DNA from: Oscillospiraceae bacterium
Lineage (GTDB): Bacteria > Bacillota > Clostridia > Oscillospirales > CAG-272
Direction of reading: 5' to 3'
DNA length: 64,000 nt
Assembly (NCBI GenBank): GCA_015065385.1
Contig: SVQK01000056.1
Location: forward strand, 458,983 to 522,982
The notes below the pieces were generated by a model. The model was not told the DNA's origin, made no database searches, and saw nothing but the letters and a program-made list of their open reading frames with translations. Both the position numbers and the translations under genes were made by a program. Of this stretch, positions 19,120-41,427 are shown in pieces; positions within the stretch are counted from its first letter, which is position 1, and each line of letters opens with the position of its first letter.

Positions 19120-22100
19120 TTAGCCCAGAACTTCTTTCGCCAGAAGCATACGGTCTTTCGCGTTGACTTCGCTGTCTCCGTTGAGATTTGCAGCTTCCCG
19201 ATCGACAAGGGCTTCATACCCTTCCCAACCGGCGAGACAGCGGGCAAGAACGAGATAGTCGAGGATCGTGACGTACCCGTCGCCGTTGACGTCGCCCCGG
19301 AGGCCGAACACGGCCCGGACAGCCGCCCGACCGGCGGGCATGACGAAGGTGTTGTCCGTCACCGTGATGTCTCCTTCAATGACCTCCCATTCCTTGAAGT
19401 ACCGTCCCTCGCCCGGAATGGCGGTCAGCGTCACGGGCTGCCCCTCCTTCGCGGAGTTGACGTTGGCGGACGCGGTTCCGCCCTCTTCGGCGAGGACGAT
19501 GACCTCATAGGACGGTTCCTCCGGTTCGGGGATCACGCTCCAGCGGGCGGTCAGGGAAGTATCCGCCGTGAAGACCGTCTCCGCCGTCACGGGAGTTCCG
19601 GCCGCGGTGTACCAGCCCGCGAAGTCATATCCGTCCCGGTAAGGTTCGGGCAGCATCGTCACACGCCCTTCTCCGTCGGTGGCGAGGATCCGTGTATCCA
19701 GCAGTCCCTCGCCCGGATCCAGCCGGATGAGGAAGAGCTTCGAGGTCTCGCCGGAGAGCGGGACGCCCGCGTAGCTGACCATGCCCTCCATCAGCCTCCA
19801 AGTCACGCCAGAGAGGTCGGCGGCGGGATCGTCCGGTTTGAAGACCGCGATGCGGGCAAACCAGTCGGAGTCGATGACGTCAGTGCCGTATCCCTCTCCC
19901 TTGTAGCCGGTGTTCGCCCGGATATCCGGGAAGGTGACCGTGCCGTGGAGGGAGACCCCGTCCGCACCGTAGAACTGCACGGCGAAGGCGGAGGAATCAA
20001 AGGACGCGTCGGTGTAGCTCCCCTCGCCGAAAAGCCGGATGAGGGATTCGAGCTGCATGTATTTCGAGAAGAGCACCGTGATCTCCCCGTTCCCCACGCT
20101 CACCGCCGCCTCGGGCGCTTCTTCGCTGAGAAGGCCGATGTTGACCGTGGTGTGGATCGGCGGGACGGACATGGCGCGAGACTCAGACGTTCTGTAGCCT
20201 TCCTTCTCGTAGCGCACCTTCCACCAGCCGACGGGCACCATCCACATGTAGTTTCCGGTGTCGCTCGTGCTCTGGGGATTCGGCTGCTCTCCGAAGGGAT
20301 CGGTCCAGACAGAATAGTTACCGTCCTCCGTCTCGCTGTAATAGAGGGTCGCCGTAACGCCTTCCACGGTGTCCTCCGTCACGGCCTCGTAGACATAACC
20401 GGAGGGGTCCAGGGTGACCGAGAACTCGGGGGCCTTGTCCTTCCACTGGTATTTAAGGATGCCGCCCGGGTATTCCTTCAGCACCCAGTTCTTCCGCTCT
20501 TCGGCGAGGGCGTATTCACTCCAGTTCCCCTTGCCGTAGATGCTGTCCATCTTGTCCCGCAGCCACTTCTCCGCGTCCATGAAGCTCTTTTTCAGCCGCT
20601 CGGCCTTCACGGCCTCGTACTTGATCTGGAGCTGGATGTCGTGGAGGGTGGTGTTGTAGACCTGACGGTTGTAGTCCTTGGACCAGCCGGAGATGACGCC
20701 GTTGAGAAGTCCGCCTACGAAGACCACCGCCTTGCCGATGGGACCCATCGGGGCGAAGTTGGACGCGGTGGAGTAGGTGCTCATGGCGCAGTCCTGCTTG
20801 TAAATATCGTACCGGAGGGATTCGTAGTCCCGGATCTGCGCTTCCAGACTGCGTCTTGCCCGGTCGTCCCGGACGTAGGTGAGCAGCTGTCTGAGTCCCG
20901 CAGGATCCGCGCCGGACGGGCCCTTCGCGTAGGTGATGACCGTGTCCGCCACGCCCAGCACCTTCATGGTGGTATCCAGCTTCTTCGGGATCAGAGATTC
21001 GCTGTCCGCAAAAGCGCGCGCTCCGGCGAGGTCGTCCGGATTGGCCGCAAGGTGGATCTTCCGGCAGTATGCCTTCCACGCCTCGTCGGTGAGGTCTCCC
21101 GACGAATAGACGATGGAGGTGCCATCGTAGAGCTGCTTGGTCCAGTGATCCGGCTTACCCTCGTCCGGACCGGCAGGAAGCGCCTGAGGACTGGCAGCGT
21201 CCTCCGCGCCGATCCTCTCCGCCGCGGTGAGGTCGGCCAAGAGCGGCGTTTCCGCGCTCAGCTTGCCCGTGCCGGATCCGGACAGAGCGTCGGCCACGGA
21301 TTTGGTGATGTAGTAGGTCGTATGGGTCTTGAGGGCGTGGCGGCCTGCCTCCATTCCGTCATAGGAGGCGATGCGGATCAGCGTGGAGCCCTGCAGGGTC
21401 TCAAACTCCGCCCATGTGACGTCCCATCCGGCCTCCGCGGGATTCTGGCTGCCCTCCTCCCGCTCCTTCTCCATCAGCATGAGGATGTCGGGCAGCTCCA
21501 TGGTACCGCCCTTTTCCATAGTGACGGCGTATTCCGAGAGCTCCTTCGTCGGCGTTTTCAGCTGCATCTTCATGCGTCGGTCGCTGTCCTCGGTGATCTT
21601 CAGATCCAGACCCTTAAGGGCTTCTGACGCCTCGGACAGTCCCGCGACAGCCTCTTTCAACTGCTCCTCGCTCATGGAGTTGACGGCGGCGGCTTCCTTT
21701 AACCCGTCGGGTACCTCGCCAAGACCATTGGCCTTGTAGAAGGCCTCCGACTCGAGGGCGGAAAGCTCCTCCGTCGTCATTTCAGCCAGCTGCTTGTCGA
21801 TGGCCGCGTTGTAGTCGAACTCGAACTCGAAGCCCTGGAGGTATCCGAGATACGCTTCGTCAATGCCCCAGATGCTCCAGTTCCCGTTCTCGTTCTCGCT
21901 GATCAGCTTGCAGGGGATGGCCCGCGTGATGGTGAGATAGTATGCGTAATTGCTGTCCTTGAGGGAGCGGAAGTATCCGTATGTCTTCGGGTCCTGACTC
22001 GTGTAGGATCTGTTGGACATGTGGCACAGGGTGTCATATACCAGATTGACCCCGTCCAGCTCCGCCGAGGTGGCGTTTTCCACCCGGAACTGCATGTAGT

Positions 22101-25100
22101 GCTTTTTGCCCGGCCAGATCCAGACATTTTTCCCCGCAAGATCCGAGAGGTTGTCGAAGTACATCCGGTCCGGGTGGTCCTCGTCCCAGCCGATGCGGTG
22201 ATTCCAGTGGGTCCAGGTCAGATTTGTGACGCGGACGGAATTGTTCTCGCGCCCCTCGAGGAGCGTGAATACCACGGGCTCGGTGGATATGGTCTCCCCG
22301 CCGACTTCCCGGTTGGCCCAAACCACATGGATGCCCGCCGTGAGGTTGTCGGTCAGGCGGACCCGGAGCCGGTCCGTGGACCCGAGGCCGAGGTAATTCT
22401 GGGCGCCTGCACCCGCGTCGTAGCTGTAGATCGGAGTGCCGTTGTCGTAGACCGTGATCCGGTTCTCCTCGGGCGTCTTGGAGAGGAAGGTCCTGAGGGA
22501 TAGGTTCAGGGTCCAGGCGGCCTGCCGCTCTGGAGACTGCGCGTTCAGTCCTTGGACGTCGAGCTGATCGGCGATGTACACGCTGCCGGGGTTGACAAGG
22601 CTGAAGATCTTCACGGGATCCCGGCGGGCGAATTCCAGAGTGGTTTCCCCCCGGTCCTCGGTCACAGAATCGTGCCAGTAGACGATTTCCAGTCTGAACC
22701 GGGCGAGGTGGGAATAGCTCAGGGGAAGCTCGGCGGTGATGAGGGACTGCCCGTTCCCCAGATCCGACATGGTAAAGGGCACCGTTCCCGCGAGATCGCC
22801 GGTGTCCTCCCGGCTGTCCGCCGCGTGGAGCGTTATGGATCTGATCTTGTCCTGATCCACCTGATCCGGATAGCGCTTCGTGAGCGTGCCTACCATGCGG
22901 ATGGTGTCCGGGCTGTCGGTCAGCTCATAGCGGCAGGTGAAGAGGTAGGGATCCAGCGCGCCCGTGATCATGGGCTTCGTGGGTTTCAGATCCTCCAGAT
23001 AGACGGTGCTGTTGGCGTAAGCGCTCACGGTCCGGTACAGGAGCCGCCCGCCGTATTCCTGCCGGAAGAAGTAGTCGCTCCATCCGGCGTTTTCCGGGAG
23101 AAGATTCCAGAGCTTCTTCGGGTTGGAGCCGAGCAGCGCCGCCATGTCCTCAGCGTCCTTCTCCGGCACCATGAAGGCAAGGATCGTGTCGCTGCCGCCC
23201 GCCTCCCAGCGGGTGTAGGGGACGGTCAGCTCGCCCCGGCCGTAGGCGAAGAGGCAGACATTGCCCATAGCCGGATAGGCGAGGAAGCCCACATAGTCGC
23301 TGTCATAATCGTCCACCACCGTAGCGCGGAACTGGCCGCCGAGGGTGGAAACGGTCGCGGTAAAGACGGCGGTCGGGGTGCCGGTATCGTCCGGGTTCAC
23401 CTTGACCAGATTGTTGGCGCCTGAGTTCGTTATGGCGGAGACGGAATAGCTCGCGTCCCCCATGGTCGTTGTACCCGCGGCGCAGACGTATATGTCCTCA
23501 TAGGCTTGGACGAGGCCCTTATGAATTCTTAAAAAAGCCTGACCGTCGATGATGACCGTCTCGAAAAGGCCGCTGTTGCTGTAGTAGGTCTTACCGCCGG
23601 TGGAGATGGACCCGACGCTGAGGAAGCCGCTGTCCACCCTTTCCGTGACAGAATCCGACGCGCTGAAGTAGGGTGTTCCGTCCTCCTTCACGGACGCGGG
23701 AGTCTGGATCTGAGCAACCAGCCGGATGAGCATTTCGCCTCCGTAGGTCATCGTGACCTGCCCGAGGTTCACGTTCCCGTTGTCCGTGACCTCAAGGCGC
23801 TGGGTGTCCCATGTGAAGGAGCGGACCTCGATCTTCGCCGGGAAGTTGTCGTAGCAGAGCACGCTCCAGTTGTTGCTGGGACCGTACCCCAAGGTGGTGC
23901 TGAACGTGACGGTCTCGGTGGAGCCGCCCCGGTCGATCTCCTGAGTGACAAGGATCGTGGCGGGCTTCGGCGCGAGACCGGTCGTGAATCCGGTGGGATA
24001 GGTCTTGACGCCCCAGACGCGGCCGCTGATCGTGCGGAAGGTGAAGGGCTTGTAGGCGAAGGTCAGCGTCTCGTCGCCTGCCACGGTGAAGCTGTCCTTA
24101 TCCGCGGTGCAGGCGCTGATCTCGTCGCTGGCAGAGGCGTCGAAGGAAACCTTCGCCTGACCGGACGAGCCCACGGGAATCTGGGTCCTCGTTTCGCCCG
24201 AGGAGGCGAGAAGCTTGCATTTTGTCCCGTCGGGGGTGGTGAAGTTCAGGGTTACCGACGCCGGGGGATTGATCTCTTCTCCGTTCAGGCTGCTGTTGAA
24301 GCCGGTGGTGACGACCTTCACGCTCCCCAGAGCGGGCAGGCCGGAGAGGGCGATATCCTCTCCCCGTTCGACTTTCACGGCGATCTGCGTGATGTGGCCG
24401 GATGCGCCGGTGATCACAACTTCATAGCCGCCGGAGGGCAGATCCCCAAGGGGGACAAAGTCGTAATTCTTATCGGTGACGAAATAACTGCGGACCGTTT
24501 TGCCGTCCTTCAGCTCGATCTTCGCGCCCGCATACTCCTTCGGGATGCCGGTGAGATGGGACCGGGCGTACACCCGATAGTCCGAGAGATCGTATTCGAC
24601 CCGCTCCTCGACCTCCCCCTCACGGACCAGCTCGTAAGCGACCTTCAGGAGCCGGTCGGCGTCGGCAGGCAGGGTGATTTCGGCGGTGAACTGACGGTTC
24701 CCGTCGTCGGTCGCCGCGGCGGTCACCGTCTTTTCGGAGCCGTCCGCAGTCAGATACGAAAGGGTCATCCGATGGGAACGGCCCGCGCCCACGGCTGCCT
24801 CGAACACGCCGGTCAGCGTCGCTCCGGGGGCCACGGCATAATAGGCTTTCCCCGTTTCGTCCTTCTTGACCTCGCTGAGGATCACGGGGGAGTACAGGGG
24901 ATTGAGATAGCCGCCTTCCAGGAAGACCAGGGGGAGCTCCACCGCGGCACTGTCCTTGGTATATCCCTCGCTCTCTCCGTCGGTCCAGACCCGCACGCAG
25001 GCGGCGTCCCCGGGAATCTCCCCGATGGCGAAGGTGGCCTCATAGCGGCTGTTCTCAGCGTTCCACGCCATGGTCCCGCCGCCTGACCCGCCGAAGTCGC

Positions 25101-26625
25101 AATTCAGGATCAGCCTTACGGGAGCCTCTGCCCAGAACAGATACCGGCGGCCTTCCCCGGTCTTGATGACCGCGGCGTCCCCCTGCCGGGAAACCTCAGC
25201 TCCGGAGACAAGGTCAAAGACGCCTATCCGGGTCGGGACGGGGGCAGTGCCGTCGTTGTAATTTACCTTCCGGGTCAGTGTAACGGTTTTCAGACCCTCC
25301 TTGCGGAACTGGGCATACGCGGTGTAGTCCCCGTACTTCCCGGCATCCGTAAGGGAAAGCATGATCTGATTGTGAGTGTCCCCGGCGGCATACCACTCCT
25401 GCCAGTTTCTGCCGTCAGCGGAGAGACGCCATTCGCCGTCGAGATAGCTGCCGGGATCCTGATAGACATAGACGTAGGGAAGCTGGGAGCTGATCCTGCC
25501 GTCGGGCAGTACGGTTCCCGACACCGTAAGCTCCGGCATCACCTCCGGGGCCGCGCCCGTGTCGGAGGGATCCTTGAAAATGCAGTAATAAGGGGTGGGC
25601 ACTTCCGCGGTATATCCGTTCAGATAGAAGTACGGATCGTCGTCATAGGCATAATTTGTGCGGAAGCTGTAAACCGGCTCCGTCTCCGTGCCCGTTTTGA
25701 CAAGGTGATTCGACTTTCCGAAGAAATAGGCGGAATAGGCGTTGTCGAAGAGCAGGCCGCCCCAGACCATACCAACGGAAGACGTGTCCTCGCCGAAGTC
25801 GAAGCGCACCAGCCGGTAGCCGAATTCGTCCGGCGAGGAAACCTCCGCCGCGTCCACTGACAAGTCCACATCTTCTTCCGATTCCGGATCGTACAATCTA
25901 TAGGTATAGGTGTAGAAAAGGGGATCGTCGCTGAGCCCGAAACCGGAGACCCGGAGCGTCATGCTGCGGATCGTGTCCGGTTCCTCCCCCTCTTCATAGT
26001 CGTACACCTGCATGGTGGTGTACAGGCCGACCGGACTGACGCCGTTCACATGGATGACGGGCAGGGTCGCGTATAAATGCCCATCCACATAGATCTCCAT
26101 GGTCACGTCGTCCTTCGGCACAAAGACCGGGACGGTGTACCAGTACAGCCGTCCGTCGAGGCCTTCGCTGTCCACGTCGCCGAACACATGGCGCTCGATC
26201 TCCCCCGTCACGGTCACGCCGCTAATCGTGAGGGACGCGGGATCCACGTCCTCCTTGCCGTAGAGCGTAAGCTCGTGCCGCGAGCCAGCGGAGCTCGCCG
26301 GGACGTAGAAGGAGATGGGCTCGTCCCAATCCGAGGAGTTGAAGTGCATGGCGCGGATCATCAGCCGGGTCTTGTATAACGCGGACTGCGGCACGTCTCC
26401 GTCCTCGCCCGCCTCCTCCCACAGCTTTTCCTGTACGCCCATGTACTCGCCCGCGGCCCAGTCGTCCATCTGCGCGGCTCCGGCGCCGGAAAGCGTGACG
26501 TAATTGAAAATCTGATTGTCCTCGAATTCCGGCGCGAGGCCTGCGAACACGGAGCCTGGCAGCACGCCCATGCAGATGACAGCCGCAAGGAACAGGCTGA
26601 GTCCTCTTTTCCAGATCTTTTTCAT
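19120..26625 (-). CDS. Giant secreted dockerin protein, 2501 aa
   Basis: The start is ATG 26625, which follows AAAAGGAGAGACTCC and opens a clear signal peptide (MKKIWKRGLSLFLAAVI, cleavage after SVFA); the extra 41 codons of the longer frame are not used. Most of the first 1500 residues look like tandem beta-sandwich (Ig or adhesin) modules. A charged helical region follows at about 1700-2040; within it, around residues 1955-1980, lies a Gly-rich hydrophobic stretch (PIGKAVVFVGGLLNGVISGW). A carboxypeptidase-regulatory-like module sits at about 2070-2165, then an InlB-type repeat (GYDFAGWYTAAGTPVT) and a Bacterial-repeat module (GRYFKEWEV). The last 58 residues are a type I dockerin (GDVNGDGYVTILDYLVLARC, then NLNGDSEVNAKDRMLL). 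No catalytic domain is recognised. Probably a cell-surface or scaffold-docked adhesin. Confidence 0.88.
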   Translation of the reverse strand: MKKIWKRGLSLFLAAVICMGVLPGSVFAGLAPEFEDNQIFNYVTLSGAGAAQMDDWAAGEYMGVQEKLWEEAGEDGDVPQSALYKTRLMIRAMHFNSSDWDEPISFYVPASSAGSRHELTLYGKEDVDPASLTISGVTVTGEIERHVFGDVDSEGLDGRLYWYTVPVFVPKDDVTMEIYVDGHLYATLPVIHVNGVSPVGLYTTMQVYDYEEGEEPDTIRSMTLRVSGFGLSDDPLFYTYTYRLYDPESEEDVDLSVDAAEVSSPDEFGYRLVRFDFGEDTSSVGMVWGGLLFDNAYSAYFFGKSNHLVKTGTETEPVYSFRTNYAYDDDPYFYLNGYTAEVPTPYYCIFKDPSDTGAAPEVMPELTVSGTVLPDGRISSQLPYVYVYQDPGSYLDGEWRLSADGRNWQEWYAAGDTHNQIMLSLTDAGKYGDYTAYAQFRKEGLKTVTLTRKVNYNDGTAPVPTRIGVFDLVSGAEVSRQGDAAVIKTGEGRRYLFWAEAPVRLILNCDFGGSGGGTMAWNAENSRYEATFAIGEIPGDAACVRVWTDGESEGYTKDSAAVELPLVFLEGGYLNPLYSPVILSEVKKDETGKAYYAVAPGATLTGVFEAAVGAGRSHRMTLSYLTADGSEKTVTAAATDDGNRQFTAEITLPADADRLLKVAYELVREGEVEERVEYDLSDYRVYARSHLTGIPKEYAGAKIELKDGKTVRSYFVTDKNYDFVPLGDLPSGGYEVVITGASGHITQIAVKVERGEDIALSGLPALGSVKVVTTGFNSSLNGEEINPPASVTLNFTTPDGTKCKLLASSGETRTQIPVGSSGQAKVSFDASASDEISACTADKDSFTVAGDETLTFAYKPFTFRTISGRVWGVKTYPTGFTTGLAPKPATILVTQEIDRGGSTETVTFSTTLGYGPSNNWSVLCYDNFPAKIEVRSFTWDTQRLEVTDNGNVNLGQVTMTYGGEMLIRLVAQIQTPASVKEDGTPYFSASDSVTERVDSGFLSVGSISTGGKTYYSNSGLFETVIIDGQAFLRIHKGLVQAYEDIYVCAAGTTTMGDASYSVSAITNSGANNLVKVNPDDTGTPTAVFTATVSTLGGQFRATVVDDYDSDYVGFLAYPAMGNVCLFAYGRGELTVPYTRWEAGGSDTILAFMVPEKDAEDMAALLGSNPKKLWNLLPENAGWSDYFFRQEYGGRLLYRTVSAYANSTVYLEDLKPTKPMITGALDPYLFTCRYELTDSPDTIRMVGTLTKRYPDQVDQDKIRSITLHAADSREDTGDLAGTVPFTMSDLGNGQSLITAELPLSYSHLARFRLEIVYWHDSVTEDRGETTLEFARRDPVKIFSLVNPGSVYIADQLDVQGLNAQSPERQAAWTLNLSLRTFLSKTPEENRITVYDNGTPIYSYDAGAGAQNYLGLGSTDRLRVRLTDNLTAGIHVVWANREVGGETISTEPVVFTLLEGRENNSVRVTNLTWTHWNHRIGWDEDHPDRMYFDNLSDLAGKNVWIWPGKKHYMQFRVENATSAELDGVNLVYDTLCHMSNRSYTSQDPKTYGYFRSLKDSNYAYYLTITRAIPCKLISENENGNWSIWGIDEAYLGYLQGFEFEFDYNAAIDKQLAEMTTEELSALESEAFYKANGLGEVPDGLKEAAAVNSMSEEQLKEAVAGLSEASEALKGLDLKITEDSDRRMKMQLKTPTKELSEYAVTMEKGGTMELPDILMLMEKEREEGSQNPAEAGWDVTWAEFETLQGSTLIRIASYDGMEAGRHALKTHTTYYITKSVADALSGSGTGKLSAETPLLADLTAAERIGAEDAASPQALPAGPDEGKPDHWTKQLYDGTSIVYSSGDLTDEAWKAYCRKIHLAANPDDLAGARAFADSESLIPKKLDTTMKVLGVADTVITYAKGPSGADPAGLRQLLTYVRDDRARRSLEAQIRDYESLRYDIYKQDCAMSTYSTASNFAPMGPIGKAVVFVGGLLNGVISGWSKDYNRQVYNTTLHDIQLQIKYEAVKAERLKKSFMDAEKWLRDKMDSIYGKGNWSEYALAEERKNWVLKEYPGGILKYQWKDKAPEFSVTLDPSGYVYEAVTEDTVEGVTATLYYSETEDGNYSVWTDPFGEQPNPQSTSDTGNYMWMVPVGWWKVRYEKEGYRTSESRAMSVPPIHTTVNIGLLSEEAPEAAVSVGNGEITVLFSKYMQLESLIRLFGEGSYTDASFDSSAFAVQFYGADGVSLHGTVTFPDIRANTGYKGEGYGTDVIDSDWFARIAVFKPDDPAADLSGVTWRLMEGMVSYAGVPLSGETSKLFLIRLDPGEGLLDTRILATDGEGRVTMLPEPYRDGYDFAGWYTAAGTPVTAETVFTADTSLTARWSVIPEPEEPSYEVIVLAEEGGTASANVNSAKEGQPVTLTAIPGEGRYFKEWEVIEGDITVTDNTFVMPAGRAAVRAVFGLRGDVNGDGYVTILDYLVLARCLAGWEGYEALVDREAANLNGDSEVNAKDRMLLAKEVLG

Positions 26626-26940
26626 GGAGTCTCTCCTTTTTCTCTCCTCCCCGGATTGACGGAGCGGAGGATTTACGGTATAATACGGATGTGGGGATGC
26701 GCTTTGAACGCTCAGGCGCATTTTCACATATTCCGGAACTTCTAACATTCAGTATAGCATAAATCTTTACCGCAATCAATCCCGCAAGCCGTTCTGTCAA
26801 TGCCCGGTTTGAGGCACGAAACGTGCCGCGGAGACTTTGCGGGATTGCAGGTTCATGGAAGAGATCGTCCCGCGGAGAAATCTGCCGCCGTAAGAGCTGC
26901 CGGATGATTCAGCGGTTTCCAGACGAAAGGAGGGTCCCTC
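26626..26940. promoter_or_regulatory. Shared upstream region with two opposing promoters
   Basis: This 315-base gap holds a plus-strand promoter TTGACG-17-TATAAT (26656-26684) that reads toward the HTH gene. It also holds a minus-strand promoter TTGATT-17-TATACT (26751-26779) that reads toward the giant dockerin gene. The two transcripts would overlap for about 50 bases, so each start could interfere with the other. The long leader of the HTH gene also contains the hairpin GGCACG-AAA-CGTGCC near 26813. Confidence 0.75.
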
Positions 26941-28400: not shown

Positions 28401-31400
28401 TCATCCCTTAAAATACTCATCATATCCGTCCCATTTCGACAGGTACCGGCCCAGAATCAGGCGGTCCTTTCCGTTGACGGAGTGGTCGCCGTTGATATCC
28501 GCCGCGTTCTTGGAAACGATCTTTTCTTCGTATCCTTCCCATCCCGCCAGATACCGCGCGAGGATCACATAGTCCTCTCTGTCCACATCATCGTCGCCGT
28601 TGACGTCGCCGATGATGCAGCTGTAGAATTCAAGCTCCGCAACGTCGCCGTGATTGGTTTCGTTGTAGTAACGGAACATCGAATAACCGGTGTTGTTGTC
28701 GAAGTCGGTGATGACGATGAACTTGGGGTCTTCTTCCATTTCGTCCTTGGTTCCCCGGAAAATGACATCTCCGACGATTTCAAAGATATCGAACCGATCC
28801 GACTCAGTATGGCATTTTGAAAGATGAATGATGATGAAAGCGGCCTGAACGGGATCGAATTCATATTCAAGATGCTTCTCCTTGTTCCCTTCGATCTTGT
28901 AAAGCAGTTTTTCAAAGGGGTTTTGCTCGTCATTGCCCACATAGATTTCAAAATCTTCCGGATATTCGACTCCGAAATCGAAGGAGAGATAGCCGATCTT
29001 CTTATTCCTGTCAACAGAATTCAGATCGATAAAGATCAAATCCTGCTCCGGCGCATCCCACCCGGCTCTCTGCCCATAGTTTGCGGGCCTGTCAGTCTCG
29101 CGCCCCTTTGCCGGAGCGTCGGACTTCCACAAGGTCGTCCAGTTCTCGCCGTCGTTGGATCCCTGAATCATGGCTCCCTCGAACCGAGCAAGCCATCCAC
29201 TGCGCGGCAGTACGACCGCCTTGTCAAGAACATGCTTCTGATCGGCTTTGATGCCGCAGAAACCATCGCCTATGTCAATCGGGTCGAAGTAGGAATCCGG
29301 ATTTCCGTCAAACGCGGCTTTTGCGCCGGAGGTCAGGTTGAGTCCGGGCCATCCGAAATCGTTTCCGATGATCTGACCTTCGATCAGCTTTCCGGATTCT
29401 CCGGAGGAGGGATATTCAAACACCGGTCTCGGTTCGATCTCAAGGATGAATCCGTATGTGTCCCAAGGATCGTCCCAGATATCGTCCCAACGATCGCCGT
29501 TGTATCTGGCGCACTCTTCTCCGCTGGGCTCTCCGTCGTGCCAGTTTGTATAGCCCCATTCCTCGCCGTTTTCCCAGATCCAGCCGTCGGGAGTCCGGAC
29601 AGCGCCGATCCAGAGATGGAGGTCTTCCTTGTTCATGCCTACGAGCAGGTCGTTCTCACCCGGATCGGTCACGGTGACAAGGTGTCCTCCCAGGTTTTGC
29701 GCGAGACCATTCGCACTGTTCCAGTTCAGTCCGCTGCGGAAAATGTAGTACTCGTTCCCGTTTTCGCCGACGGTTTTCGTGGAAAGGCCCTCGTCCAGCC
29801 AGTTTTCAAACTCCAGAATGAAGCCTTTGCTTCCTCCGATATGCTGATAGTGGTAATCCCACGGGAGATCCATAAGCTCCGATTTCCCGTCGTAGCAGAG
29901 CTCGTACACCGGAGCGTCCTCACCCGGATCTTCCGGAGCGGGAGCCGGACTTGTCCCGATCCAGAAGGAATCCGTGAAGTTACCTTGATGCCCCTGGAAG
30001 GAACCGGAATGTTTATAGCTGTCGATCAGATTCTCGACGATTTGCTTCTTCTCTTCGGAATTGACCTCGATCAGCCTTCCGTGATGCTCCCGCGCATAGC
30101 TTTCCGCCTGTTCCCGGTTCAGTCCGCCGAGGTGAAGCTCATACAGATTGCCGTTCTGGATGATGTAGTCGCCGCTGAAATTCTGCCACATGTGGTTGTG
30201 GTTCCGAACGGAGACGAACACCGCGTCCGTGCTTCCGTCTTCGAATTCGTAGGTGATTACCGCCGTGCCATTGTGATAGCACTCGATCCTCTTCTCCTCA
30301 TCTGCGCCGCCGTACCAGTTGGCGACATGCGAATTGGAATTGGAGATGAACCAGAAGTTTTCCACACCCGATTCGCCGGTCAGTGCCTCAATCGGAATAT
30401 TCCAGCCCACATCCATGGCGAAGTTCGTGTTGGCCAGCCGGGATTCGGTGGATCTGAATGCCTTTGCTCTATCTTCCGTCGGGAAGAAGGCGATATAGTC
30501 GATCAGAATCTGCTCGCCCTGCTCCATGTCTCCGCCGTAATCGATCCCTCCCTCTCCGATCTTCCACATCGGGTCAAGACGGATCCAATAAACGAAACCC
30601 TGCCATACGGTTTCGCTCAGATTGCAGCCGGAATAAGCATTGGCAGTCTTTATATTCTCTTCGGGAATATTGATGATATACTCGTGCCAGCCGTCCCCTT
30701 CCGCCAGATCAATATGCGTGCATACGGAAGCGTCCACTCCTCCGCGGCTTCCGTCCGTCGCGCCGAAAAGCTCGATGGCTGTCGCGGAGCTCAGATTCTT
30801 GGCCCTTACCTTGCACCATGCCGCGTTCTTGACATCGTCCGCGGTTATCTCGACCGAAACAAAAGGATCACTTCCCCGAGCGGTAAAGACATAATAATCG
30901 TTTCCGTCCTCGTCTCTGCCGGGTTCCCAGTCAAGGTCATTGGGGCGGTCCATATAAGAATCCAACACGCGGTCTCCGTTGAAGTCCCAGAGGAGAGAAG
31001 CACCGCGGAGGGGAGTGCAGAGATAAAGCTCGCCCATCTGATACTCATGCGGCGTATCCGTCCACATCTTCAGGGAGACATACCGATACGGACCGCATTC
31101 CGGCACTGCCATCGGATACAGGCGCGAATTATCGTAGAACAGGTGCGGATCGATGTCCCTCTCATTATCCGGTCTTTGCTGAACGCGGCCCCAATCGAAG
31201 GGCACGTCAAAGAAGTCCTTGGTGCCGGATGCGATCGTTTCCCAGTTCTCGCCGTCCGCGCTGCCGAGCACCTCCCAGTGGTCGGGCGAATTCGACAGAT
31301 CGGGATTCCAGCCGTTGCCGGTGGAGAGGATCACACCGTCGAAATAATGGTCTCCGCCAAGGTCAAACACATTCTCCGTCGGCCATCCGTTCTCGGCCAG

Positions 31401-33317: not shown

Positions 33318-33402
33318 ACCGGTAAATTCGTTGACTGTATCGTCTATTTCATTTTATCGTCCGTTCAGTTTGTCAGTGCTTATTCTTCTTTTTTCCTCCT
33401 TC

Positions 33403-36400
33403 TTACGGTTGTGAATCATCCCAGAAGTACTGTCTGTACTCACTCGGATGGGCCAGATATCTTGCAAGGATCATTCTGTCGCGCGCGGTGACTCCGTTGA
33501 CACGGTCAATGTCCGCGGCGTCCATCGATTCGATCATCTTGTCGTAGCCCTCCCATCCGGCCAGATACCGGGAGAGAATCAGAAGGTCTGCTTTGTTGAT
33601 TTTGTCGTTTCCGTCCACGTCGCCGATCAGTTTGCCGTCGCCCGCACACTTTTTGCTTCCCTCGCTCAGAACATTGTAGCCGTTCCACTTGCCGTCGTCT
33701 TTCGCTTCTTCGGGCCAGTCCGTGTTCTCATTGTAGAAGATGACGAAGCCCTGATCAGCCATCTGGTCGGAATCGCCGAAGACGGCCCGATCTCCGGGTA
33801 CATTCGGCACGTTGTGCGCAAAGTACGCGGAGGACAGATACTGACAGTTGCCGAAGACCCAGTTGCCCCAGTTTGTTACGGGTCCGAGGATGTTGACCGA
33901 CTCAACGCCGGTGTCGCTGAACGCGCAGTCGCCGAGCTCGCTTACCTGATTGCCGAGCGTAATGGTTCCGTTTTCGAACGCATTCACCGGGAATCCGACG
34001 AAATCATAGCCCCGGAAATGCCCCTCTTCGTCATAACTCTTAGTCACCGTAGAGAGGTCGCCGTCCCATGCCCATCCTTGGAACGCACCGCTTTCGATCT
34101 TCGTTACCGAATCCGGAATGATCAGATCGCCGGTGAACGGCTGGCAGCGGAATGCGTTTTCGCCTATGAAGGTAAGGTTCTTGCCGAGTTTCAGCTTGCC
34201 GTCGAAGGTTCCCTTTACAGGAGTACCGTCTTCACGCATACGGCTCTTGGGATCGCGCGGAAGCTCTTCTTCCGATTCCTCGTCCCAGTAGGTTTCCCAT
34301 TCATGGTCATATACGGGCGTGAAGATTTCCCACTTGGCACAGAATGCGCTCCGTCCGATGGTTGTCACGGAATCCGGGATCGTCAGATCGCCTGTGAAGG
34401 TCGCTCCCTCAAAGGCAGAGTCGCCGATCGTTTCGATTCCCTCTTCCAGCTTCAGCGTGCCGGTAAAGCCGGTCTCAGCAAAAGCTGCGTCTTCGATGTC
34501 CTTCACGTTTCCGGGAACCGTGAGGCTGCCGGAGAAGGGCACTTCGCGGAACGTTTCGCCTCGGATCTTGTCGATGCCCGTTCCGATCGTGAGGGTGCCG
34601 TTGAAGCCCGTCCCGCCGAACGCGTTTCCGCCGAGGAAGGTCACGCTGTCGGGAATGACGAGGTTCGAAACTCCGTCCTCCACTGCGAACGATCCTATGT
34701 TGACAATGGTGAACTCGGTGCCGTGGATCCGGCCGTGTTCGTCGTACCAGTACTTGGCGTTTTCGCCGTCCCACGCGAATCCGCAGAACGCGCCGCCGCA
34801 GATTTCTTTCAGTCCGTCGGGCAGCACAAGCGGCCCCTTGAACGGCTGGCAGTTGAACGCGTCCCATCCGATACGCGTCAGGTTTTTGCTGAGCGTCAGC
34901 GTCCCGTCAAAGGTTCCTCTGACGTAGGCGCCGTCGGTCCACCAGCGTTCCTCCTCGGTGCGTTCGCGCTGGTAATCAATACCCCGTTCTTCGTCCCAGT
35001 CCCAGGTCATCGTATCCCAGAAGTGGTCGTATTCCTCGCCCCAGAACTTCATCGGGGCGCAGAACGCGGCGTCGCCGATTTCCGTGACGCTGTCCGGGAT
35101 CACGAGATCGCCGGTGAAGGGAACTGCTCTGAACGCTTCCGGGCCGATTTCCGTAATGCCGTACGGGATCGTCAGCGTTCCGGTGAAGCGGGTATCGCAG
35201 AACGCCCCGTCGGGGATCTTGGTGAGGCCGTTTCCGAGCGTGAGCTTTCCTTCAAACGGCGCTTCCCGGAACGCATGGTTTTCCATTACCTTCACGCTGT
35301 CAAGGATCGTAAGGTCGCCCTTGAACTGCACCCGGTCTCCCGAGAACTGTCTATGGCGGATCCTGTGCACGCCGACGGTCAGATTGCCTTCGAAGCCGGT
35401 CCCGTTGAACACGTTGTCGTTGATCTCTTCGAGACCCGTTCCGATGTACAGATCGTCGGTAAACGCGCCCACCGGTACACAGTTGATATCAAGCCGCGTC
35501 CACTTAACGCCGTCCGGGGTTTCGTCCTCGACCTCATGGGGGGCCGTTTCGTCCCACGCAAAGGCGTTGAACGCGTCGTTGCCGATCCATGTGACGCTGT
35601 CCGGGATAGTCAGGCTTCCCGTGAACGGCTGGCAGCGGAACGCGTTGTCGCCAATGTGGTCAAGGTTCTTGCTGAGCGTCAGCGTGCCGTCGAACGTACC
35701 CTTCACGGGCGCGCCGTCGCCGTGCATACGTTCCTCGGCGGGGGCCTGATGCCATACGTCGTTTTCGTCCCACCAACCGTCGCCGAGGTGGTCATAATCC
35801 TCCGGGGAATACTCTTTCCACGCGGCGGAGAACGCGTTGCGGCCGATGGAAACCACGCTGTCCGGGATCACGAGATTTCCGGTGAACGGAACGCCTTCGA
35901 ACGCGCCGTCATTGATCCATCTCAGGCCGACGGGGTGTTCGTCGTCCATGACCGGATTGGGATGCTTATTCAGCGTCAGCGTGCCGTTGAAGCCCGTGCC
36001 GTAGAACAAGCCGTTGTCGATCGAGGTGACGTTCATGCCGACGGTCAGGCTGGTCTTTTCGGACGGGTTCGCGGGTCCGAACGCGCGGGTGTACTGTTCG
36101 TCCCACCATGTGCCGGTGATCTTGCCGTTTTCATCCTTATTATAGTGGATGCCGGCCATATCGCCGTCCCAGTACGATCCGTTGAACGCGCCGCCGCCGA
36201 TAAACATTACCGTGTCCGGGATCACCAGACTGCCGGTGAACGGTTGGCCATGGAACGCGTCCCAACCGATCTCCCTCACGCTATTGCCAAGCGTCAGGGT
36301 TCCGTTGAACGTACCGAGGATCGGGGCGGAATCCCCGTGCCAGCGCTGGTGCGCCTCGTTCTGGATCCAGTTGCCTTCGTTGTCGTGGTGTCCGTCGTTT

Positions 36401-39400
36401 ATATGGTCGTACGGCTTCTGATATTCGATCCAGCCGGATTCGAACGCGCCGCCGCCGATATACCATACCTTGTCCGGAATCACCAGATTTCCGGTGAACT
36501 TCGCGCCGGAGAACGCGCCGTCTTCGATGCTCTCGAGGTTCTCGGGGAGCGTCAGGGTCCCGGTGAAGGGGACGCCCCAGAACGCGGAGTTGCGGATCGT
36601 CGTCAGCCCGTTCCCGAGGGTCAGGGTTCCGTTAAAGCCGGTCGCGCTGAACGCCTCGTTTCCCAGATAGGTCACGCTGTCCGGAATCACGAGATTCGTC
36701 TTTCCCGATCCGTCAGCAGGGGCGAAGGCGTTCGTCCGGACGGTTTCGAAATAAGTACCGCAGATGCGGCCCTTTTCGTCGTAGAAGCGGTATGCGGAGC
36801 CTTCCTTCTTGTCATCCCAGACGTCTCCTTTGAACGCCCTGTCGCCGATATGGGTGACGCTGTTCGGAATGGTCAGGCCGCCGGTGAAGGGCTGGCCCAT
36901 AAACGCTTCGTGGCCGATCGAGTCGAGGTTCTTGCCGAGCGTCAGTTTTCCGTTGATGGTTCCGAGCACTCTTTGGCCGTCCGACCAGATCCGTTCCTCG
37001 GGCGTCCGCTCGACATACTGTTTATTCTCGTCGTCCCACCAGGTCGTCTCCCAGTAATGGTCGTACGGTTCGCCGAAATCTTTCCATTCGGACGCGAACG
37101 CTCTGTCGCCGATCATTGCCACGCTGTCCGGAATCACAAGATCGCCGGTGAACGGGATCCCTTCGAACGTGTTGTCCCGGATCCATCTCAGGCCGACGGG
37201 TTCTTTGTCGTTCAGTTTATAGTTCTCATGCTGCTTCAGGATCAGCTGTCCGGTGAAGCCCGTCCCTCTGAACATGCTGTTGTTCAGCTCGACGACGTTT
37301 TTACCGATCGTCAGGCTGCCGCTGAAGGAGCGGAGACTCGTCTCGTCCCACCATGCGTTCACGATGCTGCCGTTTTCGTCCTTTTCAACATGGAGGTCGG
37401 CCGGATCGCCGCTCCAGACGTTCGCGTTGAACGCGTCGTTGCCGATCCAGGTGACTCCGTCCGGAATCACGAGGCTGCCGGTGAAGGGCTGGCCGCGGAA
37501 CGCATTGTTGCGCAGCTCCTCCAGTGCCTCACTGAGATGCAGCGTGCCGTTGAAGGTTCCTTTCATCGGAACAGAGTCTCTGTGCATGCGGTCACGGAGT
37601 GAGTTCTGGTTAAACACTCCGTTATCATCCCACCAGCCTTCCCACACATGGTCGTACGCTTCCGTGTACTCATACCAGCCGGAGCCAAACGCGCTGTCGC
37701 CGATCAGGACCACGCTGTCCGGAATGTCCAGACTGCCGGTGAACGGAACGTCCTCGAACGCCCCATCTTCGATCCATCTCAGGCCGACCATCTCTTCGTC
37801 CTTGTCGCTCACCACAAAGTTCTTGTGCTCGTTCAGCGTGAGTGTCCCGGTAAAGCCGGTCCTGTAGAAGGCGTGATGCCCGATCCGGATCACGTTCTTG
37901 CCGACGGTGAGGCTGGTCTTCTCCGACTGATTCGCGGACGAGAATGCCCGGACGGTTTCCGCCTTCCAGTTCGTGTCGGTCAGATTGTTCTCTTCGTCGT
38001 AGTGGAACTCGATGGAGGACATCTTGCCATCCCAGTACTCGCTGTTGAACGCGTCGTTGCCGATCCACCTGACGGAGTCCGGAATGACCAGACTGCCGGT
38101 GAAGGGCTGGCCGCGGAACGCGTTGTTTCCGATCTCGAAGAGGTTCTCACTGAGGACCAGTTTTCCCGTCATTGTCCCCTTAACCGGAGCGTTGTCCGTG
38201 TGCATGCGCTCCCGCAGAGGATTCGAATGGAAGTCGTTTTCGTCCCACCATCCGTCGTTCACATGATCGTAGATCTCCGTGTATTCCTTCCATGCGGAGC
38301 TGAACGCGTTGCTGCCGATGGTGACGACGCTCTTCGGGATGATCAGGTCGCCGGTGAACGGAACGCCTTGGAACGCTCCGTCCCAGATCCATCTGAGGCC
38401 GACGGGGTTTTCGTCGTCCATGACCGGGTTTTCGTGTTCTTTCAGCGTCAGCGTTCCGGTGAATCCCGTGCCGTAGAACGCGCTATGTCCGATATTTGTA
38501 ACGTTCTTGCCGATGGTCAGCGAACCGCCGGCAAAGGCGTTGACAAGCGTGCCCTTCCATCTCGAAGCGACCCGTCTGCCGTCTTCTTCAAGGAAGGTGA
38601 TATCCGCCATGTCGCCGCTCCAGACTTCGCCGCCGAACGCGTCGTTGCCGATGAACGTGACGCTGTCCGGGATCGTCAAACTGCCGGTGAACGGCTGTCC
38701 GAAGAACGCGGAGTGGCCGATATATTGAACTTGATTGCCGAGGATCAGTTTTCCGGTGAACGAGCCCAGTATGGGAGCGCCGTCGCCGTGCCACCGCTGT
38801 TCCGGAGGATCCTGAATCCACTCGCCGTATTCGTTGTAGTGACCGTCCCATTCGTGGTCGTACTCCTCGTCCGAGTAGCCCCTGCCCCCGGTAGCGAATG
38901 CTTCGTCGCCGATTTCGGTCACGCTGTTCGGGATGGTCAGACTGCCCGTGAAGCGGTTGCCCGCAAACGCTGCTCTTCCGATTTTCCAAATGCTGTTTCC
39001 GAGTTTCAGTTCGCCTTCAAAGCCCTGTCCATCGAACATATTGTCGTCGATCTCCTCAACGCTGTCGCCGATGGTCAGGTTTCCTCTGAACGCGCATCCG
39101 TTGAACATGGAGCGATCGATATGGTTAATACCGTCGCCGATGACGAGGCTTCCGCCATCGAACGCGCCGACGGAATACATGTCCGGATTTCCATCCTCAT
39201 TGAACGGACGCCACTCTCCCCAAACAAAGGAATTGAACGCGTTGTTGCCGATATCGGTCACGCTGTCCGGAATGACGAGATCCCCCGAGAAGGGCTGGCC
39301 GCGGAACGCGTTTGAGCCGATGTACTGCACCGATGTGCCAAGCGTCAGCTTGCCTTCCAGAGTGCCTCGTACAGGAACGTAATCGGTCCCCTCAACCTCC

Positions 39401-41427
39401 CGACCGTATTCGTCGGTCTGAATCGGGATCCAGACGTATGAGAACGCGCCGTCCCCGATATGGGTCACCTTGTTCGGAATGACAAGATCGCCGGTAAGGG
39501 GCGCCATTCCGAAGGCTTCTTCTCCGATGTATTCAAGATTCTCGCTCAATTTAATTCCGTTGAGCGATGTGTTCAGGAACGCGCCTTCGCCGATCCGTTT
39601 GATGGAATCCGGAAGTTCGAGATCCCCCGCCAGACGAACAGCATCATGGAACGCGTGCTCCCCGATGGAAGTCATCTGATCGCTGAACTGGATCGCGGAA
39701 ACAGGATTGTTCCCGTTTTCGTCCGCCCAGGGAGGAGCCTGTCTCGTGTCGTCGTTATCCCAAGCCACACGGAAATTCCACATGTCGCCGAATCCCTCGA
39801 AGACGAGCAGTCCGTCGTTGTAGAGCTTGTAGGTCAGGTTGTCTCCGGCCTGTCCCTCATCGGTGAGCGTGTAGACGTCTTCCTCCTTAACGGAAGCGGA
39901 GCACAGAGCCACCTCGGAGATCTGGAAAATGCCGGTGTGTTCCATGTCCGCGCATTCCGCCAGTTCAAACCGGAACCAGGAGTAAGCCTTCGCGGTCGCG
40001 GTTTCCGGAATCTTCGCCGCGAAATAGGTGAAGTTCTTATCCTTAAAATAAGCAGCGTCACCGTGCGCGATCACATCCCAGCTCTCGCCGTCCTGAGAAG
40101 CGGCGATAGTCCAGTTCTGAGGATTTCTCCCATTATATTCGGCGTTGTCGTTGGCGGTTGCGAGGATCACGCCGTTGATCTTCTGCGGCTCCCCTTTCAG
40201 CCGGGCAATCGAACCGCCGGGGAAGCTTCCGGAGCAGAATTTCGTGGTTACATCCTGATCCCAGAGATTCTGCGGCCCCTCGCCGGGGAACCCGTTGGTC
40301 CCGTACTGAAATTCAAAATCCGTCAAAGGATAAGTGCCGATTTCTCTCGCCGCAAGGATGGCGCTGGAGAAGCCTTCTCCGCTGTCCGCGCCGGTCAGGA
40401 ACGGAACAGCCGTCGGAACGTCCAGAAGCTCCCAAACGCGGTAATCCCACTCCGGAACAGGATACCATTCGTAGAACTCTACCGAAGTGTAGTCGATCCG
40501 TTCGCCATCGCCGGTTCCGTTGCTGCGCTCATGGTCCGGGAACGTCTGTCCCTTTAAGAACCACTCGTAGTCGGCGGCAGAAACGCCGGCGTCCCAGGTG
40601 CTGTCGAGATTGTAATACAGTCCGTCCACCCCGACGATGTTCCAAGCGTGGCCTCCGCCGTTGCCCTTGCCGCTGATGATCCGCGCGTCCACGTCGGCTT
40701 CAAGCGCCAGACGGTAGAAGAGGTTCGCGTACCCCTGACAGACGGACGTCCCGTTGATCAGAGCAGCGTATGCGCTGTACTTGAGATTGTACGACTCGTT
40801 GTCCAGATTATCATAGTCGTAGACAACATGACTGGTGATCCAGTCGTAGATATCCTTGACCTTGTCATAATCCCTGCGATCCTCATCAAGATGCAGTTCA
40901 CTGACAAGTCCCGCTACCCGCGCGTCTACCGCCTGTTCCTGTGCGGCGTCGGCGTAATATTCCGGTAGTAAAGTGATGTAAGTCTTTCCCCCGGAAGACG
41001 ATGCACCGCCCCCCATCCTGTAAAGATGGAAAAGGAGATAGTCCCCTTCATTCGGCTTTCCGGTATGCTCGAAAGCGATATCGGTGACCTCGTTCATCAG
41101 GTTCGAAAAGTCTTCGTCGCCGGTAATAACGAAAGAAGAGCAGAATTTGGCTTCGGCTTTACGGGCAACCATAGCCGCCCGCAAAAACTCGCCGGCTTCC
41201 TGAACCGAATCGACTTCGGTATATTCGCTTTCGTTTATTTCGCCAGCCAGAATACCGTCCGCCACGCGGAATCTGCTCAGCAGGTCTTCTTCGGTGAGGA
41301 CAGTACCGGACAGCGGATTCCTCCAGTAATACGTCGCGGTCACCGGCTCCGCAGCCGAGACGCCGATACATAGCAGCGTCCCGAGGAGAATTGCCGTAAT
41401 CAGCGCCAGAATGCTCGTCTTTTTCAT
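33403..41427 (-). CDS. Giant BspA-type leucine-rich-repeat dockerin protein with transglutaminase-like domain, 2674 aa
   Basis: The signal peptide is MKKTSILALITAILLGTLLC, ending GVSA; ATG 41427 follows GAAAGGAAAGAGCC. A transglutaminase-like domain occupies about residues 150-300: VKDIYDWITSHVVYDYD, Cys in GTSVCQGYANLFYRLA, His in GGGHAWNIVG and Asp in YYNLDSTWD, so the Cys-His-Asp triad is complete. A discoidin-like domain follows at about 366-510. Residues about 550-2560 are BspA/LRR_5 repeats of the form TGDLVIPDSVTEIGDAAF, grouped in super-repeats by recurring insertions. The C-terminus is a type I dockerin (GDVDGNDKINKADLLILSRY) with a longer second loop (DIDRVNGVTARDRMILARYL). BspA repeats are known in adhesins. 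It probably binds host or plant surfaces as a scaffold-docked adhesin. Confidence 0.9.
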   Translation of the reverse strand: MKKTSILALITAILLGTLLCIGVSAAEPVTATYYWRNPLSGTVLTEEDLLSRFRVADGILAGEINESEYTEVDSVQEAGEFLRAAMVARKAEAKFCSSFVITGDEDFSNLMNEVTDIAFEHTGKPNEGDYLLFHLYRMGGGASSSGGKTYITLLPEYYADAAQEQAVDARVAGLVSELHLDEDRRDYDKVKDIYDWITSHVVYDYDNLDNESYNLKYSAYAALINGTSVCQGYANLFYRLALEADVDARIISGKGNGGGHAWNIVGVDGLYYNLDSTWDAGVSAADYEWFLKGQTFPDHERSNGTGDGERIDYTSVEFYEWYPVPEWDYRVWELLDVPTAVPFLTGADSGEGFSSAILAAREIGTYPLTDFEFQYGTNGFPGEGPQNLWDQDVTTKFCSGSFPGGSIARLKGEPQKINGVILATANDNAEYNGRNPQNWTIAASQDGESWDVIAHGDAAYFKDKNFTYFAAKIPETATAKAYSWFRFELAECADMEHTGIFQISEVALCSASVKEEDVYTLTDEGQAGDNLTYKLYNDGLLVFEGFGDMWNFRVAWDNDDTRQAPPWADENGNNPVSAIQFSDQMTSIGEHAFHDAVRLAGDLELPDSIKRIGEGAFLNTSLNGIKLSENLEYIGEEAFGMAPLTGDLVIPNKVTHIGDGAFSYVWIPIQTDEYGREVEGTDYVPVRGTLEGKLTLGTSVQYIGSNAFRGQPFSGDLVIPDSVTDIGNNAFNSFVWGEWRPFNEDGNPDMYSVGAFDGGSLVIGDGINHIDRSMFNGCAFRGNLTIGDSVEEIDDNMFDGQGFEGELKLGNSIWKIGRAAFAGNRFTGSLTIPNSVTEIGDEAFATGGRGYSDEEYDHEWDGHYNEYGEWIQDPPEQRWHGDGAPILGSFTGKLILGNQVQYIGHSAFFGQPFTGSLTIPDSVTFIGNDAFGGEVWSGDMADITFLEEDGRRVASRWKGTLVNAFAGGSLTIGKNVTNIGHSAFYGTGFTGTLTLKEHENPVMDDENPVGLRWIWDGAFQGVPFTGDLIIPKSVVTIGSNAFSSAWKEYTEIYDHVNDGWWDENDFHSNPLRERMHTDNAPVKGTMTGKLVLSENLFEIGNNAFRGQPFTGSLVIPDSVRWIGNDAFNSEYWDGKMSSIEFHYDEENNLTDTNWKAETVRAFSSANQSEKTSLTVGKNVIRIGHHAFYRTGFTGTLTLNEHKNFVVSDKDEEMVGLRWIEDGAFEDVPFTGSLDIPDSVVLIGDSAFGSGWYEYTEAYDHVWEGWWDDNGVFNQNSLRDRMHRDSVPMKGTFNGTLHLSEALEELRNNAFRGQPFTGSLVIPDGVTWIGNDAFNANVWSGDPADLHVEKDENGSIVNAWWDETSLRSFSGSLTIGKNVVELNNSMFRGTGFTGQLILKQHENYKLNDKEPVGLRWIRDNTFEGIPFTGDLVIPDSVAMIGDRAFASEWKDFGEPYDHYWETTWWDDENKQYVERTPEERIWSDGQRVLGTINGKLTLGKNLDSIGHEAFMGQPFTGGLTIPNSVTHIGDRAFKGDVWDDKKEGSAYRFYDEKGRICGTYFETVRTNAFAPADGSGKTNLVIPDSVTYLGNEAFSATGFNGTLTLGNGLTTIRNSAFWGVPFTGTLTLPENLESIEDGAFSGAKFTGNLVIPDKVWYIGGGAFESGWIEYQKPYDHINDGHHDNEGNWIQNEAHQRWHGDSAPILGTFNGTLTLGNSVREIGWDAFHGQPFTGSLVIPDTVMFIGGGAFNGSYWDGDMAGIHYNKDENGKITGTWWDEQYTRAFGPANPSEKTSLTVGMNVTSIDNGLFYGTGFNGTLTLNKHPNPVMDDEHPVGLRWINDGAFEGVPFTGNLVIPDSVVSIGRNAFSAAWKEYSPEDYDHLGDGWWDENDVWHQAPAEERMHGDGAPVKGTFDGTLTLSKNLDHIGDNAFRCQPFTGSLTIPDSVTWIGNDAFNAFAWDETAPHEVEDETPDGVKWTRLDINCVPVGAFTDDLYIGTGLEEINDNVFNGTGFEGNLTVGVHRIRHRQFSGDRVQFKGDLTILDSVKVMENHAFREAPFEGKLTLGNGLTKIPDGAFCDTRFTGTLTIPYGITEIGPEAFRAVPFTGDLVIPDSVTEIGDAAFCAPMKFWGEEYDHFWDTMTWDWDEERGIDYQRERTEEERWWTDGAYVRGTFDGTLTLSKNLTRIGWDAFNCQPFKGPLVLPDGLKEICGGAFCGFAWDGENAKYWYDEHGRIHGTEFTIVNIGSFAVEDGVSNLVIPDSVTFLGGNAFGGTGFNGTLTIGTGIDKIRGETFREVPFSGSLTVPGNVKDIEDAAFAETGFTGTLKLEEGIETIGDSAFEGATFTGDLTIPDSVTTIGRSAFCAKWEIFTPVYDHEWETYWDEESEEELPRDPKSRMREDGTPVKGTFDGKLKLGKNLTFIGENAFRCQPFTGDLIIPDSVTKIESGAFQGWAWDGDLSTVTKSYDEEGHFRGYDFVGFPVNAFENGTITLGNQVSELGDCAFSDTGVESVNILGPVTNWGNWVFGNCQYLSSAYFAHNVPNVPGDRAVFGDSDQMADQGFVIFYNENTDWPEEAKDDGKWNGYNVLSEGSKKCAGDGKLIGDVDGNDKINKADLLILSRYLAGWEGYDKMIESMDAADIDRVNGVTARDRMILARYLAHPSEYRQYFWDDSQP

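Follow-up and report, generated by a model that had tools for sequence, protein, structure and literature searches.

The window analysed here is a stretch of 64,000 nucleotides from the contig SVQK01000056.1 (C45 in our numbering) of an Oscillospiraceae bacterium (CAG-272 lineage; assembly GCA_015065385.1), whose draft genome comprises 4.3 Mb in 128 contigs and is 94.45% complete. On its minus strand lie three genes for very large proteins (genes 1, 2, and 3; 2501, 1540, and 2674 aa), each of which terminates in a dockerin, the plug of cohesin–dockerin systems (Table 1). An enzyme-poor, two-step surface display system, in which the window proteins would be clients carried by an adaptor on an S-layer-type anchor, is the interpretation that we consider likely, if well short of certain.

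All three window proteins exceed the Pfam cut-off for Dockerin_1 (22.9 bits), as a preliminary description of this DNA had proposed, and their C-termini have the features of type I dockerins (PF00404), namely two calcium-loop/helix repeats in which both loops and helices align. For gene 1, all eight phmmer matches to the PDB (E ≤ 1) fall on the dockerin stretch. The remainder of the gene 1 protein includes InlB-type repeats (Pfam Flg_new_2, 58.3 bits; Flg_new, 30.8 bits). Gene 2 encodes a C-type lectin domain and four F5/8 type C (discoidin-like) stretches in total, and its residues 676–860 share 51% identity with a module in another dockerin protein of this genome (D13). Gene 3 encodes a transglutaminase core, an F5/8 type C-like stretch that lies below the Pfam cut-off, and a BspA-type leucine-rich repeat (LRR) array. 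The discoidin-like, C-type lectin, transglutaminase, and BspA modules of the preliminary description were thus recovered by Pfam; its Ig-like modules received no Pfam call. No glycoside hydrolase (GH) or polysaccharide lyase (PL) was found in the three proteins by Pfam at E ≤ 1, in a scan limited by the HMMER filters, which discard most weak matches. The earlier statement that degradative enzyme domains are missing holds by Pfam for polysaccharides and does not extend to gene 3, where the transglutaminase-like triad C230/H260/D275 is present (the same residues occur in a 437-aa relative, described below) and a possibly active transglutaminase/peptidase-like domain is predicted. NCBIfam provides no equivalog above its cut-off for the three proteins, and single-sequence AlphaFold models are weak (mean pLDDT of 40.7 for gene 2 residues 676–900, and of 39.5 for residues 1780–2120 of the long gene 1 open reading frame [ORF]).

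Profile searches detect no cohesin, the socket for a dockerin, in the window, which agrees with the preliminary description; genome-wide, two cohesins were found, so that the complete lack of cohesins, which that description named as a refutation, did not materialise. Pfam finds one of them, in a 337-aa adaptor protein (25.6 bits against a cut-off of 24.1); the same domain scores 23.0 bits, just below that cut-off, in a whole-protein Pfam scan, and the Pfam cohesin search gives a match in one of 14 control genomes. A genus cohesin profile, constructed from 15 congener cohesins with no row from this genome, was searched against 1591 fetched ORFs together with an equal number of reversed controls (3182 in total). 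Two ORFs surpass the inclusion threshold: the adaptor (E 9.3e-8), and a 775-aa protein with S-layer homology (SLH) domains (E 0.0032; 15.1 bits), followed by the next-best real ORF at E 0.24 and the best reversed control at E 1.6. Scored alone, the cohesin domain of the SLH protein attains 20.7 bits, the best among 4952 scored shuffles being 12.4. An alignment profile (A1) that contains both of these cohesins detects no third one in the whole genome at E ≤ 5, in a search that scores only candidates from a loose first look. When A1 is compared with the PDB, cohesin chains make up the first 48 of the 59 matches, mostly by name (a few, 5nrk/5nrm, NagJ, and Amy4, we take to be cohesin chains), and 10 of the final 11 are other chains.

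The cohesin locus and the window locus are situated on different contigs of the draft genome. At the former, on one strand, a transglutaminase-dockerin gene is followed after 69 bp by the adaptor gene, and this after 25 bp by the gene for the SLH protein, the candidate anchor. The protein encoded directly upstream of the adaptor has 437 aa, and its N-terminal region shares 54% identity with that of gene 3 (MAFFT; 44.8% over a longer BLAST alignment), a similarity that links the window to the cohesin locus. As the two cohesin proteins have a single cohesin apiece, we propose a monovalent adaptor/anchor chain; a scaffold in the classical sense, of which the preliminary description spoke, is not borne out, as no multi-cohesin protein was found in this genome. 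Anchoring appears to be SLH-based. The genome also has three sortase matches.

The genome contains 31 dockerin matches at E ≤ 0.1, of which 25 are above the Pfam cut-off; among the 14 control genomes, the dockerin search gives matches in five, above the cut-off in two. A Pfam scan of every parent ORF identifies BspA LRR_5 repeats in 13 of the 31 and a recognised GH or PL catalytic domain in none, counts that support the core idea of the preliminary description, a dockerin system that is non-cellulolytic and oriented toward adhesion or recognition. Transglutaminase-like domains occur in two dockerin ORFs (gene 3 and D12), and single ORFs encode a class-3 lipase (D11), a GDSL lipase (D25), a G5 domain (D14), and a subtilase with a weak internal dockerin match (D28); Ig-like or SprB repeats are present in D22 and D27, and the remaining ORFs are mostly without a domain call. 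One match (D31; 16.1 bits, lipoprotein-like) is probably false.

Four proteins have half dockerins, that is, a single repeat (D26, D27, D29, and D30; loci L053, L054, L055, and L039), and in three of the four this repeat is near the N-terminus, after a signal-peptide-like start and ahead of LRR or Ig-like repeats. The half dockerins were rejected as a novelty, since group 2 of Ruminococcus flavefaciens consists of short (half) dockerins, one of which, an LRR-Doc, binds ScaE and ScaH (excerpts of PMC5301203). At two contig ends (L038 and L042), dockerin ORFs have identical first 46 residues and different dockerins, which points to a recent duplication or to an assembly that broke within a repeat.

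An alignment of 24 dockerins (the adaptor and 23 of the 30 clients, seven short or doubtful matches being left out) separates the adaptor from the clients. Mean identity among the 23 client dockerins is 44.6%, and that of the adaptor dockerin to the clients is 24.8%, with a maximum of 30%; L18, R/K20, L54, and R/K56, in the helices after the calcium loops, are kept in all 23 clients and absent from the adaptor. We therefore distinguish two predicted dockerin classes, client and adaptor. Together with the two sockets, these classes suggest that client, adaptor, and anchor form a chain. The strict retention of the paired recognition-helix positions also argues that these modules bind within this species. 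Were they non-binding here, and either calcium-stabilised caps or plugs for cohesins from other community species, the excess of dockerins (25–31) over two cohesins would be accounted for, as would six congeners that have dockerins and no recognised cohesin; in R. flavefaciens, moreover, most dockerins from LRR parents bound none of the tested cohesins, and several did, a few of them to ScaA/ScaB cohesins (excerpts of PMC5301203). Transglutaminase-dockerin genes adjoin cohesin genes in several species, a further point against non-binding ends, to which we give very little chance.

In the two-step scheme, the window proteins would be secreted, and the C-terminal client-class dockerin of each would dock into the single cohesin of the 337-aa adaptor. 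The dockerin of the adaptor, being of the other class, would dock into the single cohesin of the 775-aa anchor, which would be held at the cell wall by its SLH domains. The LRR, lectin, discoidin-like, and transglutaminase-like parts would then face outward, for adhesion or for recognition and processing, with host, diet, or neighbour surfaces as possible targets. Socket types would be very few for the approximately 25–30 competing clients, and expression could thereby change which of them are displayed. From the sequence evidence as a whole, the surface display system appears to be real, and is probably functional.

Related arrangements occur in the genus, for which 25 genomes were compared (the present genome, G000, included). 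Dockerins (Pfam, E ≤ 0.001) are present in 21 of the 25, and cohesins in 16 by Pfam (E ≤ 0.01) and in 14 by A1, which was partly built from these genomes. The cohesin loci of 14 genomes were annotated with home-made profiles; these locus lists omit a cohesin/SLH-like protein that is present in G015. A cohesin and SLH are combined in one protein in G000, G007, G008, G012, G013, G021, and G023 (weakly in G009), and a cohesin and a dockerin in G000, G001, G008, G013, G014, and G023 (weakly in G003 and G009). In all four genomes where both types are strong (G000, G008, G013, and G023), the adaptor gene adjoins the anchor gene, with gaps of 25, –4, 10, and 99 bp, respectively, the last pair being convergent; the weaker versions in G009 are on different contigs. 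The fullest locus, in G013 (C320), has a two-cohesin adaptor and an SLH anchor, followed on that strand by a row of eight dockerin genes, of which three include transglutaminase. In G019, a transglutaminase-dockerin gene precedes a cohesin gene, with a transglutaminase score of only 14 bits.

Beyond the genus, a Clostridia metagenome-assembled genome (MAG) from water deer caecum (L174) has a gene for a 2782-aa transglutaminase-dockerin protein and, after a gap of 15 bp, a cohesin gene (33 bits), the product of which ends in a transmembrane-like segment. Among the 19 loci from this search, a dockerin was detected by our profile in only L174 and L177. In two Erysipelotrichaceae MAGs (L179 and L189), a transglutaminase domain is fused to SLH and there is no dockerin, as if the dockerin had replaced a built-in anchor. 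At the level of the family, Pfam detects cohesins in 77 of the 146 genomes examined, so the logic may be common there.

The clients of congeners were sampled in 61 dockerin ORFs from 58 fetched stretches, which cover part of the genus matches; the 55 ORFs scanned include one adaptor that bears a cohesin, and 25 of 32 domain families are listed. At least 28 of the 55 have LRR_5 and at least nine have transglutaminase, and among the matches listed there are single cases of subtilase, M6 peptidase, phospholipase C, sulfatase/phosphodiesterase, NAGPA, and CAP, as well as one weak GH123 (8e-5). The client set is thus mainly LRR and transglutaminase proteins, and not strictly enzyme-free. An enormous dockerin-ended open frame in one relative was discarded as an artefact that consists mostly of N.

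In a tree of 19 cohesin rows, the two cohesins of the G013 adaptor separate: the second joins the G013 anchor cohesin (96/99), and the first joins the cohesins of the G000 adaptor and of G019 (91/87, under the star threshold of the tool); the G000 anchor cohesin has a very long branch. Co-evolving pairs in each species could give such a pattern, and the G013 groupings suggest, without proving, that adaptors form chains. The tree and the dockerin classes also bear on a one-step alternative, by which the window dockerins would bind the cohesin of the SLH protein directly and the adaptor would serve otherwise, for example in recruitment to another partner. Group-4 dockerins of R. flavefaciens do bind the surface-anchored ScaE cohesin directly (excerpts of PMC5301203), and stretches resembling the adaptor C-terminus occur on large frames in four congeners (G006, G007, G009, and G017). 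One-step tethering is nevertheless decidedly improbable given that client and adaptor dockerins differ in class, and that the species with which the G000 adaptor cohesin groups, G019 and G013, have clients that share the motif (by eye).

Several observations weigh against two-step display as we propose it. The cohesin of the SLH protein has no Pfam match at E ≤ 0.1 and no phmmer match in the PDB; further cohesins may be missing from the data, as the genome is a draft and the loci lie on different contigs; and approximately 2300 aa of gene 1 are without a Pfam match above the cut-off. A division of genus cohesins into two clades, anchor and adaptor, was unsupported (5 changes for each label, versus 5.5 in shuffles). 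Nine of the 25 genus genomes have no Pfam cohesin at E ≤ 0.01, and six of these nine have one to four dockerin matches; dockerins without a recognised cohesin thus occur in the genus, in incomplete drafts. Monovalence is not general in the family, since a single 1009-aa frame of G033 contains seven cohesin matches. Some clients have enzyme-like domains (transglutaminase, lipase, and subtilase), and there are signals below the cut-offs: a Cthe_2159 carbohydrate-binding domain in D07 (25.6 vs. 25.8 bits) and D13, PL4 domain II in D01, and a GH5 C-terminal domain in D28. Contig ends cut off four dockerin ORFs (D02, D09, D11, and D19), and a catalytic part could be hidden there.

Part of this evidence, namely the lipase-like clients, the weak carbohydrate-related signals in those four ORFs, the GH123-like congener client, and the seven-cohesin protein of G033, would fit a reduced or diversified cellulosome or mucinolysome, with the LRR and transglutaminase proteins as accessories alongside degradative enzymes. 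There is precedent in R. flavefaciens FD-1, in which LRR-, transglutaminase-, and peptidase-dockerins coexist with a cellulosome (excerpts of PMC2930009). Such a derivation is unlikely for the present genome: none of the 31 dockerin ORFs has a recognised GH or PL catalytic domain above the Pfam cut-off, and the A1 search found no several-cohesin protein in this genome. Two-step display also admits a broader version, for which we claim less and which is somewhat doubtful: that a large family of gut Clostridia has turned the plug to general, enzyme-poor display, with 25–30 interchangeable giant adhesins on one monovalent chain, and that in some species adaptors like that of G013, with one client-type cohesin and another resembling the cohesin of its own anchor, could link up as filaments and so increase the number of sockets.

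Table 1. Features of the window, of the cohesin locus, and of related loci (window positions, except where a locus is named).
Feature	Coordinates	Strand	Remarks
Gene 1, 2501 aa	19120..26625	-	Signal-peptide-like start (by eye), InlB-type repeats, C-terminal dockerin
Gene 1 dockerin	19126..19296	-	Client class; Pfam 39.4 bits; best PDB match E 0.0012
ORF of 390 aa	26941..28113	+	Between genes 1 and 2; HTH-like N-terminus (by eye); no Pfam match
Gene 2, 1540 aa	28401..33023	-	Signal-peptide-like start (by eye), F5/8 type C, C-type lectin, C-terminal dockerin
Gene 2 dockerin	28440..28610	-	Client class; Pfam 40.8 bits
Gene 2 best F5/8 type C stretch	29124..29327	-	Residues 1233–1300; PF00754, 73.0 bits
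Gene 2 C-type lectin domain	29481..29729	-	Residues 1099–1181; PF00059, 42.0 bits
Gene 3, 2674 aa	33403..41427	-	Signal-peptide-like start (by eye), transglutaminase-like, F5/8-like, BspA-LRR, dockerin
Gene 3 dockerin	33454..33624	-	Client class; Pfam 33.6 bits
Gene 3 BspA-type LRR array	33748..39750	-	Residues ~560–2560 (limits by eye); PF13306, 430 bits, 14 LRR_5 stretches
Gene 3 transglutaminase core	40606..40878	-	Residues 184–274; PF01841, 42.9 bits
GHL10 protein	42683..44023	+	Glycosyl-hydrolase-like 10; near gene 3
Adaptor, 337 aa	Other contig		Signal-peptide-like start, one cohesin, own dockerin of the other class
Anchor, 775 aa	Gene after adaptor		N-terminal cohesin, InlB-type repeats, two SLH stretches in one ORF
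G013 adaptor	L154:3597-8454		Two cohesins
L174 transglutaminase-dockerin and cohesin genes	L174:9989-19627		Cohesin protein with transmembrane-like C-terminal segment
L179 fusion	L179:9989-13363		Transglutaminase fused to SLH
L189 fusion	L189:9382-12711		Transglutaminase fused to SLH

The number, strand, and lengths of the three window genes are as first described, except that they are not consecutive: the 390-aa plus-strand ORF separates genes 1 and 2, so only genes 2 and 3 are directly adjacent (gap of 379 bp). This ORF has two homologues in the genome (31 and 30% identity), both on contigs without a dockerin match; an association of the ORF with dockerin loci was unsupported, and it is context that, as far as known, lies outside the system. 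The longest gene 1 ORF (19120–26748, minus strand) would give 2542 aa. We prefer the ATG at 26625, because a purine-rich site lies ahead of it and because the end of a promoter-like –10 element, at 26751, would place the start of transcription within the longer frame; both elements were recognised by consensus matching only. The GHL10 protein near gene 3 is on the opposite strand and absent from the dockerin matches. A tblastn search of gene 2 against plasmids returned a single record, the matching stretch being 8% of the query.

In Clostridium thermocellum, the primary scaffoldin CipA, which has many cohesins and a carbohydrate-binding module (CBM), carries enzymes as its clients and docks through its own dockerin on SLH-bearing anchor proteins (type II anchoring). 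The two-step logic proposed here is alike, in that the second-class dockerin of a cohesin protein would dock onto the cohesin of an SLH protein; the CBM-bearing scaffoldin with many cohesins and the enzyme clients set C. thermocellum apart. BspA-type LRR surface proteins likewise have LRR_5 arrays on giant secreted proteins, to which a dockerin repeat is here added at the end or, in a few, at the start.

The closest counterpart is R. flavefaciens FD-1, another gut Clostridium, whose groups 4a, 4b, and 2 comprise dockerins on secreted LRR, transglutaminase-like, and peptidase proteins, also in gene clusters. Excerpts of the FD-1 study put the leucine-rich-repeat modules of dockerin proteins at 28 and their transglutaminase modules at 10 (its Table 2), report five group-4b transglutaminase-like genes head to tail, and include a speculation by the authors, in 2010, that such proteins may help to structure the cell surface (PMC2930009). 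Half dockerins are common to both, and the predicted anchor would be the counterpart of ScaE, the single-cohesin surface protein of R. flavefaciens. As far as those excerpts and those of PMC5301203 extend, R. flavefaciens differs in that its LRR and transglutaminase clients are surrounded by a complete cellulosome, which has scaffoldins with several cohesins and numerous GH-dockerins, in place of the single cohesins and lack of recognised GH clients seen here; in addition, ScaE is sortase-linked, and the anchor described here appears to be SLH-based.

Cohesin–dockerin assembly that extends beyond cellulose breakdown in gut Firmicutes is also exemplified by the mucinolysome of Limousia and the amylosome of Ruminococcus bromii, the latter named in the mucinolysome paper (PMC12997984). 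According to excerpts of that paper, the clients of the mucinolysome are mainly GH enzymes, with peptidases and others besides, and its scaffoldins bear several cohesins, a sortase motif being present in one scaffoldin; its main text does not use the terms SLH, leucine-rich, or adhesion (PMC12997984). Dockerin-bearing, mucin-degrading enzymes are a mucinolysome feature of which no example was found in our genome, where no dockerin ORF has a recognised GH domain. Because two defining features of a cellulosome, a several-cohesin scaffoldin and GH-bearing dockerins, were likewise not found in the draft genome, we do not classify the system as one. Our searches of open-licence PMC papers turned up no description of a cohesin–dockerin system with mainly LRR/transglutaminase clients and without a cellulosome. 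Within the R. flavefaciens cellulosome, LRR- and transglutaminase-dockerins have been known since 2010 at the latest; here such clients occur nearly on their own, and the question of what non-catalytic dockerin proteins are for could be reduced to a small binding matrix with two candidate sockets. The system might also offer a natural, largely non-enzymatic display platform for engineering. It would work in the manner of a cellulosome's anchoring arm.

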